A stretch of 64,000 nucleotides of DNA from contig CAMARW010000001.1 of assembly GCA_945860865.1 (NCBI GenBank), forward strand, positions 1 through 64,000, in the 5' to 3' direction. The translations under genes were made by a program, and so were the position numbers. A model generated the notes under the pieces. The model was not told the origin of the DNA and did no database searches. It saw only the letters and a program-made list of their open reading frames with translations. Below, in pieces: positions 44,120 to 52,797 of this stretch. Position 1 is the stretch's first letter. Each line of letters starts with the position of its first letter. The DNA is from Chitinophaga pinensis. Its GTDB lineage: Bacteria; Bacteroidota; Bacteroidia; UKL13-3.

Positions 44120-44185
44120 GCTATATTTTAAGGATTTATCCTATTTATCCACAAAAGAAAAATAGCGCCAAGGTTTTTACTTAAG

Positions 44186-46195
44186 CTACCGCTTGTAAAA
44201 CATATGCATCATAAAAAAATGAGGAAAACTGATACAAGCTATAAATATGAAAAAGTTGGCCCACAATGCCGACATATCTTTTATTTCATTTGCATTGAAT
44301 AAAATAAGAACAAAAATAAAAAATGCACCTAGCGTATATAAACTAGATTGCTTATAAAGGTGCCGCGTATCCATATTTAATCGCAACTTTAAGTGTTGCC
44401 AAGCATTGGCACTATGTTGAAATATAAAATAAAGGGCAAACGCCAATATTAAGGGTACTTTAACTCCTATAAGCAATAAAAAAAGCAACCCAGTAAAAGA
44501 GGCATTTTTAGATAAAATACAGGCATACAAAAGATAGCCAAAAGATAGCGCCGCAATGGCATTGCCTAAAAAAGCATGCTTAATAAGGGGTAAATTTGTA
44601 TAGTTGGCAATTACACTAAACGATTCTGCTGCATGCGTAAAAATAATAAACAATAATATGCTTAAGCCCATTAAAAATGCTTTTAAATAGCTATGCAAGT
44701 TATTTATGTGCTTATCTGTTTGAACCCATTCTGACTCTCCAAAATGAAAAGAGGAGAACAAAATAAAAACCAATAAACCCATAACCGGAAAAAGCTTCCA
44801 AAACGCAAAATAAAGCGCAATTATTAGCAGGTATTTACCAATAAAAAGGGGCAAAGAGTTATTAGGCTTTTTTGAAAGTAAGTGGTCTAAAGCTCCATGC
44901 GGTATGCCAATCCAAGCTAATCCTACAACTAAAACTGCGTAGCTAAAATAGGCGGCCCAGCTAGGGCTTACAAAAGAAATAGTTACATAAGCCACAACCA
45001 CCAAGAATGCGCCAATATACCTCAACCAATTGTTTTCTTTGAGATATAAATACAAAGCTTTTAAAAATGGCTTTTTGGGTAGAAAAGCAAAAATCAATAA
45101 CTCTTGCAGCAAGTTTGTTTTTTCATCTAAAAAAGTAAAGATGGTGTTTACAGATTGCTGCCCAAATAAGCGCGAAAATATTAATTTTCCTTTGGCCGGC
45201 CAGTACAACAAAATAAGCAATAAAAGATTATCATAAAACCTAAACCGGTGTTTATTGGGCAGGGCAATAGTATTAAAATGAGTTAGGTTATTTGTAGCAA
45301 TTTGCTGGCTAACTTGCTCTGCAAAAGCAAACATTTTTTTAAATGCATAACCTGTACTTGGCTTTATTAAATTGCCCCTTGCACCAGTATGCAAAACTCC
45401 TTTTTGTTCACTTGTTGGAAAGCGAAAAGTTGTCATAGGAATACAGCCCACCTCATCACCTTGTATATGATAATTGCCAAAGTTTGTTTGTATAAATCCA
45501 TGCAATACTTTAGTGGCATAAGCTTTATCTATAAGCTCAGTTCCAAAGCGTGTTAGCTCTACCAGCGCCTCTGTAGCAGAAATTGGAATAACGTAAACAA
45601 ACTGCGTAAACTTGTTTTGATCTACGTTAAAGTTCATCATTTCAAAAGTATTTTCATCAAATACCGCTTGTTCACATTTAACGTATAAACCATAAAAAGA
45701 TTGGTTCAGGTAAATATCATTTGCTCCCATTTTATCTGCCTTAGGCGCTCTACTATCAAAAACATAATGAGCAATATAACTTGCATCTATTGTTTCTACA
45801 TTATAGCTTTGATTGGTATTTGTAACTTGCTTTATACCTTGCCTAAAAACGGGAATATTTTCTTGGGTAATAATATTGAGTGTATGCTTATATAAATCTA
45901 AGCTGCGAATGTGATGGTAAGGCTGCTGTTGAATGGCTTGAGGCTTGCCTGCATTAATTTTAATAGCTGTAAATCGACGCGAAATAATTGATTCTAAAGC
46001 AGTAACTATCGTTTCGTTTGGTTCGGCCCAAAAACAAAAAGTTTTATCGTTTTCAGATTTGTTTTCAGCCTCAAAAATGATTACTCGCTTGTTTTTTAAT
46101 AAACCCTTTTTAATTAAAGAAATTAAAATGAGGCTATTACTGGCTCCTAAACCAATAAACGCAAAATCATATGTAGTGCTTTGTGCCGCGTGCAT
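44186..46195 (-). CDS. crtY-blh: Lycopene cyclase / Brp-Blh beta-carotene dioxygenase fusion
   Basis: This 669-residue membrane protein joins two pigment enzymes. Residues 1 to about 385 are a CrtY-type lycopene beta-cyclase: dinucleotide motif FIGLGASNS (13-21), KTFCFW (51-56), TGARGNLIKPSTGYAF (270-285) and the closing FLPKKPFLKAL. Residues about 390-669 are a Brp/Blh 15,15'-dioxygenase with several membrane helices and the iron-binding His sites GIPHGALDH (430-438), FHFGESEW (483-490), IFQHSANAWQH (591-601) and SFPHFFMMH (656-664). The product path would be lycopene to beta-carotene to retinal. The frame is continuous with no internal start needed. Separate genes are the usual state. No other carotenoid or rhodopsin gene is in the window. 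Confidence 0.92.
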   Translation of the reverse strand: MHAAQSTTYDFAFIGLGASNSLILISLIKKGLLKNKRVIIFEAENKSENDKTFCFWAEPNETIVTALESIISRRFTAIKINAGKPQAIQQQPYHHIRSLDLYKHTLNIITQENIPVFRQGIKQVTNTNQSYNVETIDASYIAHYVFDSRAPKADKMGANDIYLNQSFYGLYVKCEQAVFDENTFEMMNFNVDQNKFTQFVYVIPISATEALVELTRFGTELIDKAYATKVLHGFIQTNFGNYHIQGDEVGCIPMTTFRFPTSEQKGVLHTGARGNLIKPSTGYAFKKMFAFAEQVSQQIATNNLTHFNTIALPNKHRFRFYDNLLLLILLYWPAKGKLIFSRLFGQQSVNTIFTFLDEKTNLLQELLIFAFLPKKPFLKALYLYLKENNWLRYIGAFLVVVAYVTISFVSPSWAAYFSYAVLVVGLAWIGIPHGALDHLLSKKPNNSLPLFIGKYLLIIALYFAFWKLFPVMGLLVFILFSSFHFGESEWVQTDKHINNLHSYLKAFLMGLSILLFIIFTHAAESFSVIANYTNLPLIKHAFLGNAIAALSFGYLLYACILSKNASFTGLLFLLLIGVKVPLILAFALYFIFQHSANAWQHLKLRLNMDTRHLYKQSSLYTLGAFFIFVLILFNANEIKDMSALWANFFIFIACISFPHFFMMHMFYKR

Positions 46196-46268
46196 TTAAT
46201 TTATCAATTAATCTATTAACATATTGCCTGAGCTTTTGTTTATGCCGAGCAAGGTAAGCAAATTGATT

Positions 46269-47039
46269 TTATTTATGTCTGAACCAACAATCTACACGTT
46301 GCTGTTGATACAATTTAAAAACGGTATTAACGGGTGCACCGTGGAATAATTGCTTGTTAAATTGGGTTCTTGAGAGGTAATTAAACGCGCCCATATCTCC
46401 GGTAAAGGCCGAGTTATTATCACAATTTGCCTGCGCATGTATGGCACATAATTTTGTTATAAACTGAAGCATTAAAGGGGCACTGCCGCCCATTATGCCG
46501 CAATTTAGGAGCGTATGGTCTGCAAATTCGTTCTCGTAAAAGGCATAATCTGCAATGTTGTTTCTAAGCACCTCAGAATGGGCAAACATCCATTCATTGT
46601 AAAGCTTTTTGGGCTCATCGCCACAAAAGAGAGTAGTTGGTTGGGAAAGGAAAAAAGGATCAATAAAAGGGTTATTTACCAGCACCACATCCGATATATC
46701 TGTCATAAAAACATGCTTAAGGTTAGCGCCTTGGTTCAGCATAAAATCTTTATAAACAAAATAACGGTATACGTTTGGATTAAATTGAGGGTTGTAAGCA
46801 ACTTTTACAAAGGAGATAAATTTATTTTGGTGCTGCCTGCATGTTTCTTCACTTAAGTTATTGTGAAAAACAACGCCTTTTACAGAGGCATTGGCCAGCG
46901 ATGCTGCCCAATCTTTTACTAATTCATAATTATTATTGGCCAGTGTTTCATTTCGGTTTACATCATAAACCCCCGAAATTAGACAGGCCATAACCAGGTT
47001 AGTATTAGGCTCTAAATGTATGGTATTGGTGGCTATCAA
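46269..47039 (-). CDS. Putative glycosyltransferase of unrecognised family
   Basis: This 256-residue cytosolic protein has HVFMTDISDVVLVNNPF (a DxD-like metal site), GDEPKKLYNEWMF, LNCGIMGGSAPLML and FTGDMGAFNYL. The order of an acidic site, a CG-x-xGG turn and a late acidic loop resembles GT-A transferases, but I cannot name the family. It starts at a TTG that shares bases with the TGA stop of the preceding glycosyltransferase gene (four-base overlap), which suggests translational coupling. It is likely part of surface sugar synthesis. Confidence 0.65.
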   Translation of the reverse strand: MIATNTIHLEPNTNLVMACLISGVYDVNRNETLANNNYELVKDWAASLANASVKGVVFHNNLSEETCRQHQNKFISFVKVAYNPQFNPNVYRYFVYKDFMLNQGANLKHVFMTDISDVVLVNNPFIDPFFLSQPTTLFCGDEPKKLYNEWMFAHSEVLRNNIADYAFYENEFADHTLLNCGIMGGSAPLMLQFITKLCAIHAQANCDNNSAFTGDMGAFNYLSRTQFNKQLFHGAPVNTVFKLYQQQRVDCWFRHK

Positions 47040-47692
47040 TTTTGGTTGGCCAGCACCTGCTTTTTAATGGTGGCACAAATACTATTGGGGATATTTCTGT
47101 AATAAATATAGCTTCTTAAGTTAAATTTTTTGACCCTAAATTGTGTTTGTGCTTGTTCGTAAAAATCAGAATCTGCACCATACCCATTTTTAAAAATGAT
47201 GCTTTCGAACACCTTTTTGCGGCCAAATAAAGTACCAAATAAAATGCCTTCATCTAAATGGATAAATTTAGTGAGATCATTTTTATCGGGAACATAATAA
47301 TCTTCTACCTTATCTACAATGGTTTCTGTGGTAGAGCAAATTAAATCGAGTGTTTCTAATTCTCTTAGGCATGCGCTAAGGTGATTGGGTTTGTATTCAT
47401 CATCGCTATCAATAATGGTTATAAACTCGCCTTCGCTGAATAGAATGGCGCGGTTAATAGATTCGGATTGCCCCCTATTGCTGTGCCTAATATAAATTAT
47501 TTTATCTTCGTGTTGGTGCACATATTGCAGAATAGATTCGCGGTTGCTGTCTTCGCTACCATCATCAATAATTATTAGCTCAAAGTCTTGAAAATCTTGA
47601 TTTAAAACTGAATCAATAGCCCTTTTTACATAAGAGAACTCCGTATTATAAACAGCCATTAAAACCGATATCTTCACACTTTTTAATAACAT
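47036..47692 (-). CDS. Family 2 glycosyltransferase (short)
   Basis: This 218-residue GT-A enzyme has VKISVLMAVYNTEFSYVKRA (6-25), the first acidic site IIIDDGSEDSN, and the metal-binding ITIIDSDDEYKPNHL. It is shorter than most GT2 enzymes (250-350) and ends soon after the catalytic core (IYYRNIPNS), so it has no long acceptor domain. It would move a sugar from a nucleotide donor; donor and acceptor are unknown. Its stop overlaps the start of the next transferase-like gene. Confidence 0.88.
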   Translation of the reverse strand: MLLKSVKISVLMAVYNTEFSYVKRAIDSVLNQDFQDFELIIIDDGSEDSNRESILQYVHQHEDKIIYIRHSNRGQSESINRAILFSEGEFITIIDSDDEYKPNHLSACLRELETLDLICSTTETIVDKVEDYYVPDKNDLTKFIHLDEGILFGTLFGRKKVFESIIFKNGYGADSDFYEQAQTQFRVKKFNLRSYIYYRNIPNSICATIKKQVLANQN

Positions 47693-47847
47693 TACGCTAG
47701 CCTATAATTTTTGTAAAATTAATCAAATAAAACTAGCCTCTGTATTAAATTTACTTAAAGAACTGGTAAAGCTGGTATGGGTTCAAGATAGAATCTATTT
47801 TATATGCACCAAATACCGCTTTTGCCAAACGGCTAATGCCATTAGTT

Positions 47848-48927
47848 TTATTCTCTTCTAAATTCTTTTAAAACAGATAACGCCTTATTATCAAAATCAA
47901 ACAAGGCTTGGTTTTCCCAAGGAGATGCATCTGTTGATTGATTCCCTTTCCAAGCGATAAGTTCAGCTCCCCAATAACAAAAACCCATTCCGTTATCTAC
48001 TTCAGCCGTTAATTTCTTAATTTGTTTTATGAAATTTTTTTGTCCGTCTGGAGTTGCAGGAAATTCAGGTAATATTAATTGGTTATCTGAACCAACAATA
48101 TTATTCGTCCAATCATTCCAATCCAATGTAAAAGGATAAGCCGTTTCGGCAATTAAGATTTTCTTATTGTGCGTGTTACTTAATTGCTGCATTTTAGTTT
48201 TAAGGCTATTTAAGGATTTACCGTGCCAAATAGGGTAAAAAGACAATCCAATAAAATCATAATCAATAGCACGTATTTGATTGAAAAACCAATCAGAGTT
48301 ATCGATGCCTGCAAAATGTATAATTACTTTACATTCAGCTGAATTATCCCTTACTGCAGAAATTGCTTCTTGCATAAGACTAACAAAATTTTGAAAATTA
48401 GTTGAAATATCGCCATAGGGATGGAGTATCCCCGAGTTTATTTCATTGCCAATTTGAACATAATTTGGTTGTATTTCATTGATTACTTTTTGGGTATAGT
48501 TGTATACACTGTCTTTTAAAGCATTGATACTAATTCCTTGCCATTGCACTGGCGTTTTTTGATGAGCTGGGTCTGCCCAGGTATCTGAATAGTGTATAGT
48601 TAGCCAAGTTTTAAAACCATTAGCTTTTAGGGTTTGAGAAAACTGCTTTACTTCATTAAATCCAGAATGTTCATCAATTGGATTTACCCAAAGTCTTAAT
48701 CTAACAGTATTTATTCCGTTTTCTTTGAGTATTTTTAGGAAGTCTTTTTCACCTCCATTCAAATCATAGAATATTGGATTTGTGCTTGATATCTCAGGAT
48801 AACTTGAAATATCAACTGCAGTAATAAAATCCAGATTTACATTGTTTGGAATGGCCTCTTTTACCTCATCTTTATTACAAGCAATGAGAACCAAAAGAGC
48901 TATTAATATTTGGATTGTTCTATTCAT
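47848..48927 (-). CDS. GH53 arabinogalactan endo-1,4-beta-galactosidase lipoprotein
   Basis: This 359-residue protein has a lipoprotein signal (MNRTIQILIALLVLIAC, Cys17). The TIM barrel shows GH53 motifs: VDISSYPE, NTVRLRLWVNP, IHYSDTWADPAHQ, the acid/base Glu162 in QIGNEINSG and the nucleophile Glu261 in ILIAETAYP, and a late FCYWGAELI. It cuts beta-1,4-galactan, a pectin side chain, at the cell surface. No SusC/SusD pair or other galactan gene is beside it, so it is not part of a visible polysaccharide-use locus. Confidence 0.93.
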   Translation of the reverse strand: MNRTIQILIALLVLIACNKDEVKEAIPNNVNLDFITAVDISSYPEISSTNPIFYDLNGGEKDFLKILKENGINTVRLRLWVNPIDEHSGFNEVKQFSQTLKANGFKTWLTIHYSDTWADPAHQKTPVQWQGISINALKDSVYNYTQKVINEIQPNYVQIGNEINSGILHPYGDISTNFQNFVSLMQEAISAVRDNSAECKVIIHFAGIDNSDWFFNQIRAIDYDFIGLSFYPIWHGKSLNSLKTKMQQLSNTHNKKILIAETAYPFTLDWNDWTNNIVGSDNQLILPEFPATPDGQKNFIKQIKKLTAEVDNGMGFCYWGAELIAWKGNQSTDASPWENQALFDFDNKALSVLKEFRRE

Positions 48928-49010
48928 TCTAAATTACTGGGGTTCGATGATTTTTAATGATTGGCTTGGCCCTTGGCTTGCAAAAAAGGTGTATGGCTTT
49001 AGCATAGCGG

Positions 49011-51224
49011 CTATTTTATAACTTTTTCGAAGATTCCAACTACTCTAAAATTGTTCAATTCGTCTTTATGTAATTCAATTTCTGAATAATCAGGGTCTGT
49101 AGATAAAGGCTTTAAGACTATTGATTCATGTTTGCGCTCTTCATTAGAATTACTCCATTTGCTATGATATTCTTTAACTGTGTAACCTGAACCAAATTCT
49201 GAGTCGTGAATATTTGTAGATTCAACTAAAACAATTCTACCGTTTCTTGTCCCTCCTTCATCTTGTTTAAATAGACAATACGAACCATTAGGTATTTTTT
49301 TATTCATGGATTCTCCAATAACCTTACAAATAAAATAGCCCTTTTTAACTGAAATATTAATTGGTGGTTCTATCCATGTTAACTCTGAATGTTGCTGCAA
49401 ATTGGTAAAGTTGCCTGCTGCTGCCGAGATATCAACTAATGGTATTGAATTAACATAGGGTATTGCTTCTTCAAACCGTAGGATTCTGAATGGTATTTCT
49501 TTTTTGAATGTCTCAATGTGATTTTGCAAATACTCTCTCAATTCTTTGTTGTAAGCGTAAATAAAAGTTCCTTTTATTCCACGATACATTATTGTCTTGT
49601 AAATATTAACAATATAGTTCTTTAGTTCTTCTTCATTTACCCCAATTCGCCCATATTTATCAAAATATTTACTCGAATCAATTTCGATTTTATTTGCAGC
49701 AGGGTTAAAATTTATTTCTTTTCCGAAAATAACTCCTGTATAGTTTAAATCATATCCTTGAACTGTATGAATACAACCAATTTCATGCAAAGGATTATTA
49801 ATGTCTTTTGGATTATTAATCCAATCTTTATCGGTTTGATTCCATTGAAATTGCAAACCTTCAATTTCTATATCTATCGCATCTAGATTTGGCTTCTTTT
49901 TTTTGGGGTCAGATTGCCATTCCCATGAATACCCTGAAACTAACCTGCACAAATGATAGTCATCTTCTTTTTTTGATAATTCGGTATACAAATCTTTAAA
50001 TGATTCAAATAATACCAGATCATATGATTCCTCTCTATATTTAGATTGAATTGCTCTTTTAATATTTAGTAAATCGTCAACAAATTTAATATAGTTATTA
50101 CCGCCCTTTACTCTCATTTGAGACTTCAGTTCAAGCTTTAACGTGTTTTTCTCATTCAATAAAGTATTAAAATTTGAAGCGTCAACATCAGATGGCTTCA
50201 CAGATTGAGCTGAGTCATAAAAGAAAATTTGGTTCTTACTATTTGCAAGTATCCAATCTAGCTCAGTTCCAGTATCATCTAAATTTAATTTTTGATTATT
50301 CTTTTTAAAGGCACCTCTCCAGCCAATATTTTTGTATTGTCTAAGTCTGTGAGCTTCGTCAACAATTAATAAATCATATTTCTGTGGACTAAAAGTGTTT
50401 GATGGGTTTATTACCATAGATGCTTTAAGCCCTGGAATTTTTCTAAATACATTTTCTAATGATTCTCTAAGAGAAGTCATTGCCACTACTAAACCAATTT
50501 TTGCATTAGGATATTTATTTCTAAATTCTTTGATATAATTAATCTCCCGTAACTCATCATCATTGAATTCGCCTTGTTGTATGGCTTCAACATCAGTTGT
50601 TAAAAGCTTCATCAAATATGTTGCAAGAATTGTTTTTCCGGTGCCCGCACTACCGCTTATAAAAACGCTATTTGATCTTTTATAAGTTAAGCCCTCTAAT
50701 ATTTCTAATACTGAGTTATATTGGTCTTCATTTAGCGATTTGTAGGGGGAATATTTAAACAACTCTGAATTTTCAATTTCTGTTAAAGACTTAGTGACAA
50801 TTTTTCTTTCAATTAATTTGTTCCAAACTTCTTTAAATAGATTTTTATAAAGGTCTTGTTGATAGTATCTATGATTAATTAATCCATAATTACCATTTTG
50901 TAATTTATATGTTCCTTCTGCTGTTATATATTGAATTAAATTTGATTCAATATCTAAAGTCGCAGATTTATTGAATTTATCAGACCCTATAATTGAGATT
51001 TTGTCAAGCTTGCATCTTTCAGGATTTGCCAAGTGATTTTTTATGCGGCTTGATGCATTTGTTGATTCACCCACATAGGCTAATTTTATAGAATCATTTT
51101 GTATAAAATAAACCAGTGGCCATTGGTTTTTAACCCAAGTATTTTGTTCAATTCGATTTAAAGATTCTTTGCTAAAATCGTATTGCTCGGAAACTTCAAT
51201 TGATAATTCGAATGACAAATTCAT
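49011..51224 (-). CDS. GIY-YIG nuclease / DUF2075 helicase / LexA-like S24 peptidase fusion
   Basis: This 737-residue protein has three modules. Residues about 36-110 are a GIY-YIG nuclease (VYFIQ 38-42, YVGEST 50-55, Arg60, Glu93). Residues about 165-580 are a DUF2075 P-loop helicase-like ATPase: Walker A GSAGTGKT (191-198), Walker B LLIVDEAHRL (285-294), QMRVKGG, HTVQGYDL (486-493) and IMYRGIKGTFIY. Residues about 595-737 are an S24 LexA/UmuD-type domain with GESM (Ser639) and YTVKEY (Lys684), the Ser-Lys dyad, and AAAG (601-604) as a possible self-cleavage site. The start ATG overlaps the stop of the MazG-like gene. Likely a nucleic-acid-acting stress or defence protein; no precise function is known to me. 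Confidence 0.92.
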   Translation of the reverse strand: MNLSFELSIEVSEQYDFSKESLNRIEQNTWVKNQWPLVYFIQNDSIKLAYVGESTNASSRIKNHLANPERCKLDKISIIGSDKFNKSATLDIESNLIQYITAEGTYKLQNGNYGLINHRYYQQDLYKNLFKEVWNKLIERKIVTKSLTEIENSELFKYSPYKSLNEDQYNSVLEILEGLTYKRSNSVFISGSAGTGKTILATYLMKLLTTDVEAIQQGEFNDDELREINYIKEFRNKYPNAKIGLVVAMTSLRESLENVFRKIPGLKASMVINPSNTFSPQKYDLLIVDEAHRLRQYKNIGWRGAFKKNNQKLNLDDTGTELDWILANSKNQIFFYDSAQSVKPSDVDASNFNTLLNEKNTLKLELKSQMRVKGGNNYIKFVDDLLNIKRAIQSKYREESYDLVLFESFKDLYTELSKKEDDYHLCRLVSGYSWEWQSDPKKKKPNLDAIDIEIEGLQFQWNQTDKDWINNPKDINNPLHEIGCIHTVQGYDLNYTGVIFGKEINFNPAANKIEIDSSKYFDKYGRIGVNEEELKNYIVNIYKTIMYRGIKGTFIYAYNKELREYLQNHIETFKKEIPFRILRFEEAIPYVNSIPLVDISAAAGNFTNLQQHSELTWIEPPINISVKKGYFICKVIGESMNKKIPNGSYCLFKQDEGGTRNGRIVLVESTNIHDSEFGSGYTVKEYHSKWSNSNEERKHESIVLKPLSTDPDYSEIELHKDELNNFRVVGIFEKVIK

Positions 51225-51550
51225 AGTTCATTATATTTTTTTGATGAACCTTTTGCTTTATCTACAGGATATTTCTCTCCATTCGTTTTGATTTTGTCCA
51301 AGATAATCTCCTTAACATCGAATCCATATTTTTCAGCTAGTAAGAAGGCAAATGAAAAAATATCAGCAAGTTCTTCTTTTACTTTTTCAGTATTCGCATC
51401 CTCTGCTTTCTTCCAAAGAAATAATTCTAAAAGTTCAGCAGATTCAATACTTAAAGCTAATGCCAAATCTTTTGGATTATGAAATTGCTCCCATTCTCTT
51501 TCGTTTCTAAATTTCAATAGTGCTTGTATTATTTCTTCACTTTCTTTCAT
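51221..51550 (-). CDS. MazG-like nucleotide pyrophosphohydrolase
   Basis: This 109-residue all-alpha NTP pyrophosphatase has the metal-binding ExxE...ExxD pattern: Glu36 and Glu39 in SIESAEL, and Glu60 and Asp63 in KEELADIFSF. The tail KTNGEKYPVDKAKGSSKKY matches the dCTPase/RS21-C6-like branch. These enzymes remove pyrophosphate from (d)NTPs, cleaning the pool or depleting it. It is the first gene of the pair and overlaps the nuclease-helicase gene by ATGA, which means linked expression. Confidence 0.93.
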   Translation of the reverse strand: MKESEEIIQALLKFRNEREWEQFHNPKDLALALSIESAELLELFLWKKAEDANTEKVKEELADIFSFAFLLAEKYGFDVKEIILDKIKTNGEKYPVDKAKGSSKKYNEL

Positions 51551-51996
51551 TATTTCTTCGCTTTATGCATTTTCAATGACATTTTATATACTACTTCATT
51601 AGGCAATTATAATCGATATTCCATTTCTGGAATTACTATTGACTAACTCACGTTTCTGTATTCTGGCTTGTCAAGAAGTGTCGAATTTAATGATTTTTTT
51701 TCTAAATGTCAGTCCGCACGATTTGAAAATTTTAGCTCTTTTGGTTTTACAAAAAGATCCGCTTTTATGTTGGGCAAAACCAAATTGCTACATTACTCAA
51801 GATGATTTATTTGGTTTGTATAACCCTGCTTTAAGTTTTTTTATGCTGTCTACAATTGCAATTATCAGCTTTTACAGGTTTTTAAATTTCTGCGGTCTTG
51901 CTGCTTCCAATGTCGCACTCAAGGCAGCTTCAGTAATACTGCTAATCTTCTAGTTTCATGCGCGTACATTCTCAGATGCCCTATTTAAACTTGTTA
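51551..51996. other. Intergenic region upstream of the MazG operon
   Basis: This is 446 AT-rich bases between the MazG-like gene and the 3' end of a lipoprotein gene. It should hold the MazG operon promoter. A small palindrome ATTCCA-TTTC-TGGAAT (51618-51633) lies about 68 bases before the MazG start and could be an operator. A 104-codon frame on the plus strand (51639-51953) has no recognisable feature and I treat it as chance. Confidence 0.45.
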
Positions 51997-52797
51997 CTAT
52001 TTTCTGCGCGGTATGGTTCTGGTTTTTCCATTTACTGTTATAGTAATCAACTCATCGCACAAACCCGTTCCAAAATCAATTGTTCTCAACAACCTGTTTT
52101 CTGGCTTTACTTCTATGATACCACTAACCAGTTTGTATGTGCATGAAACTACTACTCTTAAAGATTTTGTTATCTCACTAGTAAACGAAACTCCTTTTCT
52201 ATTTACACCGCTTCCAGAACCTGTTATTTCATATACATCATCTAACCTAGTGGCTGTATTTAAACCATCTACCCAATAACGGGTTCTGTTACTTTTCCAA
52301 GTAAATGTCTCTACACTTGGCGTAGTAATTTTTCCTGAAACCTCTATGGTAAAACTAAACTGACCCTTTGTGGTATAACCATTGTTAAGAATAGATTTCT
52401 CACCCTCCACCAAATTATTGTTTTGATAAAACTTATCAAACGTAATCAAAATTTTTGTGCCTGGTTTTCTGTAGGCACCCGTCCACTTTACCAAGATAAC
52501 TCCCCTGCGTAAATTGCCGTCTTTGCACAGGTAATTACTTGTTCCGTAATCTATGGTCATGGTAATTGGAGAAACACTGCTATCCACGCTCACTAAAGGG
52601 AAACCACCTTTTTTTAGACCAAGGTCTTCTGCCGCTTCATTTACTTCAGAATAAACCAAATCAAAAGTCATCTCCCCATGAGATTGGTCTTCTACCGAGG
52701 TAATATCTGTGTCTACCTCATTATCTTTTTTACAAGATAAAAATGTTATGCTCATTAAAAGCATAAAAATGAAGGGATAAGAGAATTGCTTTTTCAT
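51997..52797 (-). CDS. Lipoprotein of unknown function
   Basis: These 266 residues begin with a lipoprotein signal peptide (FIFMLLMSITFLSC, then KKDNE). The mature part is beta-rich, with no family I recognise, and it has several paired features (MTIDYGTSNYLCKDGNLRRG near residue 85-104; TIDFGTGLCDELITITVNGK near the end) suggesting two similar lobes. Small Bacteroidota lipoproteins of this type are often surface-exposed. It stands alone. Confidence 0.8.
   Translation of the reverse strand: MKKQFSYPFIFMLLMSITFLSCKKDNEVDTDITSVEDQSHGEMTFDLVYSEVNEAAEDLGLKKGGFPLVSVDSSVSPITMTIDYGTSNYLCKDGNLRRGVILVKWTGAYRKPGTKILITFDKFYQNNNLVEGEKSILNNGYTTKGQFSFTIEVSGKITTPSVETFTWKSNRTRYWVDGLNTATRLDDVYEITGSGSGVNRKGVSFTSEITKSLRVVVSCTYKLVSGIIEVKPENRLLRTIDFGTGLCDELITITVNGKTRTIPRRK

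Follow-up and report, generated by a model that had tools for sequence, protein, structure and literature searches.

A mobile MazG-helicase gene pair, a candidate restriction-type defence module with a predicted LexA-like tail

The stretch of DNA analysed here (the window, 64,000 nucleotides) carries on its minus strand two overlapping genes, one for a MazG-like pyrophosphohydrolase and one for a large protein that joins a GIY-YIG nuclease, a Schlafen-type SF1 helicase and a predicted LexA-like autoprotease tail. The pair moves horizontally, and a role in defence is well supported by its genomic context. We tentatively propose that it is a mobile restriction-type defence module with a pool-cleaning MazG and a self-cleaving tail switch, a reading which in our judgement falls a little short of an even chance. 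Within this reading we infer the cleaning role of MazG, as well as the self-cleavage of the tail and the direction of its effect; a modified-DNA target of the nuclease is suggested by association.

Two overlapping genes and their domains

The features of the pair and its surroundings are as follows.

51221..51550, minus strand: MazG-like all-alpha NTP pyrophosphohydrolase, 109 aa, gene 1 of the pair (PF12643, E=3.7e-20)
49011..51224, minus strand: GIY-YIG / SF1 helicase / S24 protein, 737 aa (Pfam and structure)
51221..51224, minus strand: ATGA, four-base overlap of the MazG stop and the helicase start (sequence)
50880..51224, minus strand: GIY-YIG nuclease domain, about residues 1-115 (fold match to UvrC, EndoII and I-TevI, plus invariant residues)
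49500..50837, minus strand: SF1 helicase (Schlafen group 3), about residues 130-575 (PF09848, E=8.7e-58)
49014..49448, minus strand: predicted LexA-like S24 autoprotease tail, residues 593-737 (Peptidase_S24 in Pfam, E=1.1e-6; LexA fold)
49413..49418, minus strand: predicted self-cleavage dipeptide Ala603-Gly604 (A603 in 42/42 and G604 in 41/42 S24-bearing relatives)
49308..49310, minus strand: catalytic Ser639, in GESM (42/42 S24-bearing relatives)
49173..49175, minus strand: catalytic Lys684, in TVKEY (42/42 S24-bearing relatives)
44161..51998, no strand: variable island with the pair and lycopene-cyclase/Brp-like, glycosyltransferase and GH53 genes, missing in relatives

The original prediction described two genes joined by an ATGA overlap, and both open reading frames are indeed found on the minus strand with the ATGA common to both. 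The MazG metal residues that it took to be intact (E36, E39, E60 and D63) are invariant among relatives, as are W20 and W46. Each of the nuclease, helicase and LexA-like domains that it placed in a single chain is supported by Pfam or predicted structure, and its DUF2075 domain does belong to a Schlafen-related helicase family, now named SLFN-g3_helicase (PF09848).

The nearest solved structures to MazG in a profile search are DCTPP1/RS21-C6 (E=3e-27). The two share a fold family, the metal-binding Glu/Asp residues and the pair of base-pocket tryptophans, and six of the eight DCTPP1 pocket residues are invariant in MazG, including both Trp (W20 and W46). DCTPP1 hydrolyses 5-methyl-, 5-formyl- and 5-halo-dCTP, and its family acts on dCTP itself (PMC7162842); the preference of DCTPP1 for 5-methyl-dCTP has been credited to Trp47 and Trp73 (PMC4491611). 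We therefore take modified dCTP as the candidate substrate. In contrast to DCTPP1, the MazG of the pair is bacterial and operonic, and a Leu stands in place of the base-contacting His38, which makes a preference for 5-methyl-dCTP insecure.

An AlphaFold2 model of the 737-aa protein, based on an alignment of 52 relatives, had a mean pLDDT of 83.8, and the N-terminal 130 residues were also folded alone for structure comparison. The Pfam match to GIY-YIG is weak (E=9e-4, just under the cut-off). The predicted N-terminal domain resembles the GIY-YIG domain of UvrC (1yd5; Z 7.5, rmsd 2.4, 83 residues), T4 EndoII (Z 6.9), I-TevI (5.9) and the 5hmC-specific PD-T4-3 (5.3), with a plant Grx N-terminal domain ranking highest (Z 8.8). 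Given these modest Z values, the assignment rests also on the active-site residues: Y39, Y50, G52, R60, H64, E93 and N110 are invariant in 52/52 relatives, and hence the fold is accompanied by the Tyr, Tyr, Gly, Arg and Glu that define the class.

Residues 110-576 of the predicted structure align to the SF1 helicases UvrD (Z 17.0) and SLFN11 (Z 15.3), the latter agreeing with the PF09848 match that places the domain in Schlafen group 3, and K197, D289, E290, H292, Q340, R371 and R548 are invariant in the 52 aligned relatives. The likeness to Schlafen lies in this helicase family; the difference is that no Schlafen RNase core is recognised by Pfam in the 737-aa protein, the N-terminal fold being GIY-YIG. 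Nor did Pfam recognise a modified-base reader domain in the large protein, although such readers can be novel, as that of CMoRE. A plain sequence search of the PDB with the large protein gave no match, and a profile search gave weak matches to LexA and SF2 motors.

The predicted tail (residues 593-737) aligns with the catalytic domain of LexA over its whole extent (1jhe; Z 14.4, rmsd 2.3, 120 residues), including the stretch that bears the cleavage site. G604 lies 35 residues from S639, and the distance from cleavage site to catalytic serine is likewise 35 residues in LexA and UmuD. The tail thus has the whole fold of LexA, UmuD and CI together with their Ser-Lys dyad and Ala-Gly site, and such strict conservation of both dyad and dipeptide speaks for selection on self-cleavage. 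It differs from these proteins in being fused to a nuclease-helicase, with no DNA-binding or polymerase partner domain, and in its Ser-Lys spacing of 45 residues as against about 37 in LexA. Among relatives the large protein comes in two forms, a tailed one of about 735 aa and a tail-less one of about 560 aa. About a fifth of relatives have no tail, which indicates that it is not needed for basic function.

Pairing, mobility and exchange of alleles

We fetched 64 loci, of which two are contig-edge fragments. In 62/62 loci where both genes are visible MazG adjoins the helicase, in Bacteroidota, Actinomycetota, Patescibacteria and Bdellovibrionota. Nearly all related loci have the same -4 spacing (four-base overlap). 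Among the few that depart from it are those of Patescibacteria, with a 1-base gap, and Actinomycetota, with a 14-base overlap, where helicase identity is 36-38%. Substitutions relative to the closest copy (L005) are mostly synonymous, with dN/dS of 0.13 or lower in every domain, and this together with the constant adjacency shows that the pairing is not due to chance. Distant homologs with both genes were found in Lactiplantibacillus, Ligilactobacillus, Priestia, Halomonas and a haloarchaeal plasmid, and on two unannotated faecal 'Bacteriophage sp.' scaffolds which may be bacterial DNA. Single-sequence and profile searches of a viral contig collection found no relatives of the pair. One locus (L013:7383-8000) has about 600 bp of repeated palindromic GGACAT...ATGTCC units between MazG and helicase, a spacer not seen in other loci; L064 has a spacer of 403 bp.

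Universal conservation at one position had been named in the original prediction as evidence against a mobile defence role. The pair is instead present in 14/60 relatives, partial matches counted, and lies within a 7.8-kb island flanked by core genes (RluB-like and lipoprotein/DctA-like). The whole island is missing from the nearest relative (G001, locus L094), whose DctA-like protein is 95% identical to that of the window. Two further genomes (G013 and G003) likewise have none of the 44161-51998 content, and the site in G014 holds other genes, namely a transporter, cytochrome peroxidase-like, GH53 and TauE-like. No direct repeats of at least 10 bases were found at the island ends, and we therefore propose no insertion mechanism. 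A second copy, 94% identical over 48974-51551, sits between unrelated flanks.

The two genes appear to differ in history, their alleles having been reshuffled. In L099, L100, L101 and L103 MazG is 91-94% identical to that of the window and the helicase 44-45%, whereas L003 shows the opposite pattern, with 90% identity for the helicase and 47% for MazG. By these comparisons MazG looks like an exchangeable enzyme that is not locked to one helicase. Three broken copies were also found (L049, G399 and G147), and broken copies are common among defence genes.

Restriction neighbours and a sister module

The homologs have type I, type IV and CRISPR genes beside them, which together with the patchy distribution and the variable island bears out the candidate defence role first suggested for the pair. 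In L004 and L007 the pair is immediately preceded by genes for a NUDIX hydrolase and a SauUSI-like protein; such genes also occur near it in L063 and L064, and beyond the helicase end in Psychrobacter (L066), and a Lactiplantibacillus plasmid has a single row of NUDIX, SauUSI, MazG and helicase. The two modules thus stand side by side in several phyla. SauUSI-like genes occur in 9/395 phylum genomes, from which we estimate that well under 0.1 SauUSI neighbours would be expected within 8 kb of the 62 loci. It is the adjacency alone that exceeds chance; co-occurrence of the pair with SauUSI at the genome level in the phylum sample does not.

Other homologs have as neighbours MrcB_N proteins, GmrSD, AspBHI-type Mrr, HsdM/HsdS and Cas10. 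MrcB_N, GmrSD and AspBHI-type Mrr are modification-dependent restriction families, and several of these neighbour families act on modified cytosine. In a PADLOC scan the 140 neighbours gave matches to 200 families and 124 random-region proteins gave matches to 53, counts that are crude because related models match the same protein; the enrichment of defence genes among ordinary neighbours is suggestive. The module has two genes, and those next to it in the window include no methyltransferase, as type IV restriction requires.

When the large protein was searched against its own genome, a second place was found in which the tail alone matches, at 48% identity. This is the C-terminus of an 1147-aa PLD nuclease - SF2 helicase - DUF3427 protein on contig C3, which has the SauUSI architecture and matches the PADLOC type IV methyl-directed restriction enzyme (mREase, E=7e-239). 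A NUDIX hydrolase of 131 aa, matching the PADLOC candidate PDC-S07, lies upstream with a 14-base overlap; its PDB matches do not separate NudG from MutT. In 7/7 tail-bearing loci examined, C3 included, the NUDIX gene overlaps or abuts the SauUSI-like gene. MutT homologs beside SauUSI homologs appear in a figure legend of Bell et al., and the passages of that paper on this adjacency discuss no function (PMC7641849). The same S24 tail is likewise found at the end of two HsdR proteins encoded in type I operons, and in the 395 phylum genomes matches to the tail family are limited to such fusions or to cut-off or broken fragments. The parallel NUDIX-SauUSI-like module and a LexA-like tail common to known restriction motors go beyond what had been noted for this DNA.

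SauUSI, which acts at sites with 5mC or 5hmC (PMC12707154), is a nuclease whose translocation is driven by ATP (PMC7913695). The large protein of the pair resembles it as a one-chain nuclease and ATP-driven motor working without a methyltransferase, and the versions seen here share an upstream nucleotide pyrophosphohydrolase, those in Bacteroidota having the S24 tail in common as well. However, the pair has GIY-YIG in place of PLD, SF1 in place of SF2 and MazG in place of NUDIX, with no SRA/DUF3427 reader in the large protein; the PLD, SF2 and DUF3427/SRA combination that defines the family is found in the C3 protein and not in the window protein. CMoRE/PD-T4-3 is a GIY-YIG type IV modification-dependent enzyme, and so provides a case of this nuclease in modification-dependent restriction (PMC12923530). 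It differs in having neither helicase nor partner gene, and no counterpart of its C-terminal 5hmC sensor is recognised in the large protein.

PADLOC 2023 did not recognise the pair as one system: MazG had no match and the helicase only partial ones, to candidate models and to AbiO (E=1e-11, residues 273-433, about 160 residues). Consistent with the original view that no named system has this composition, MazG with this helicase is not a named system in the sources searched. A literature search for DUF2075, COG3410 and MazG with GIY-YIG found nothing relevant, although older surveys may mention the pair. The parts are of known kinds; the sources searched have no precedent for their combination, for its repetition within one genome with different parts or for a predicted self-cleaving tail shared in this way. 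The passages on MazG in DefensePredictor (2026) give it as a predicted, untested defence domain; in those passages MazG is not validated and the present gene pair is not described (PMC13092281).

Proposed mechanism and alternatives

On our preferred reading, the large protein would bind invading DNA, probably with modified cytosine, the SF1 motor would move along the DNA and the GIY-YIG domain would cut it. Modified dCMP recycled from the destroyed DNA could then return as triphosphate, at the risk of entering the host chromosome. MazG, as a dCTP-type pyrophosphatase, would clear modified dCTP, such as 5-methyl- or 5-hydroxymethyl-dCTP salvaged when phage or methylated DNA is destroyed, which would keep the host chromosome unmarked and free from attack. 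After DNA damage, RecA filaments would bring about LexA-type clipping of the S24 tail. Clipping would most likely turn restriction down, as a built-in restriction alleviation, with turning it on as the alternative; turning down is favoured because type I restriction enzymes are silenced after DNA damage (PMC12707154).

The pair had originally been thought to deplete nucleotides and then cut. In a model of this kind MazG would destroy dCTP on infection and starve the phage, with the nuclease-helicase as sensor and second effector of an abortive defence, and we regard it as unlikely. Defences that deplete nucleotides are known, dCTP deaminases among them. The DCTPP1 family does hydrolyse dCTP (PMC7162842), and the DefensePredictor passages list MazG among predicted, untested defence domains (PMC13092281). 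However, the genes overlap and so are probably co-transcribed, with no separate control of MazG visible; MazG swaps between helicases about 45% identical, as would be expected of a free-standing enzyme more than of a tightly gated toxin; and NUDIX takes its place in the parallel module. The swapping of alleles and the presence of NUDIX suggest pool cleaning rather than lethal depletion, so that of the earlier interpretation the candidate defence role stands and the depletion mechanism is not favoured. It seems to us quite improbable that the pair is a DNA-repair or damage-tolerance module directed at host DNA. The likeness of its domains to UvrC, UvrD and LexA would fit a UvrC-like nuclease, a UvrD-like helicase and a UmuD/LexA-like sensor, as would pool cleaning with SOS-type proteolysis, but the pair is patchy and mobile, lies in a variable island and beside restriction genes, and has a type IV restriction enzyme as its sister module.

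Very little probability is given to a third role for MazG, the removal of phage-made modified dCTP during infection, leaving phage DNA unmodified and open to the other nucleases of the cell. The same DCTPP1-like pocket would serve, and type I systems adjoin some homologs; yet such an activity would work against a partner like SauUSI that needs modified DNA, and the two modules travel together. The tail, in turn, might serve for dimerisation alone, like the S24 domains that form the UmuD and LexA dimers, and remain uncleaved. This would be compatible with any other reading of the pair, and S24 domains do dimerise and tail-less forms do persist, but a scaffold would have no need of the Ser-Lys dyad and Ala-Gly site, which 42 sequences conserve with almost no exception, and we think it improbable.

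In the literature searched we did not find it addressed how modification-dependent restriction spares its own cell when modified nucleotides recycle. If the preferred reading of pool cleaning and a tail switch is correct, a mobile operon joining a nucleotide cleaner to a nuclease, built twice in one genome, would be a direct answer to this problem of self-attack. It would also provide the first function of MazG in defence, so far predicted but untested in the DefensePredictor passages (PMC13092281). With the LexA-type tail present on restriction motors of three kinds, restriction alleviation would gain a proteolytic route built into the enzyme itself, beside the ClpXP and assembly routes already described (reviewed in PMC12707154). 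A more general design can be imagined, which we hold to be rather doubtful, in which unrelated translocating restriction nucleases (HsdR, SauUSI-like and GIY-YIG/Schlafen) would carry an interchangeable LexA-type tail tying them to damage, and those that attack modified DNA would also have a MazG or NUDIX cleaner.

Some of the related loci hold further genes. On contig C3 (L067:309-5000) the NUDIX and SauUSI-like module is followed by a small HigB/HigA-type toxin-antitoxin-like gene pair. A Lactobacillus amylolyticus plasmid (L152:687-6731) has NUDIX, GmrSD-like and AspBHI-type Mrr genes near an SLFN-g3 helicase, and no MazG was found there; NUDIX possibly stands in the place of MazG. The operons with tailed HsdR (L123:4025-7570 and L124:4036-7584) also contain genes for an AAA ATPase and an HNH protein that together resemble the PtuA/PtuB pair of Septu, and that of L124 has HsdS as well.
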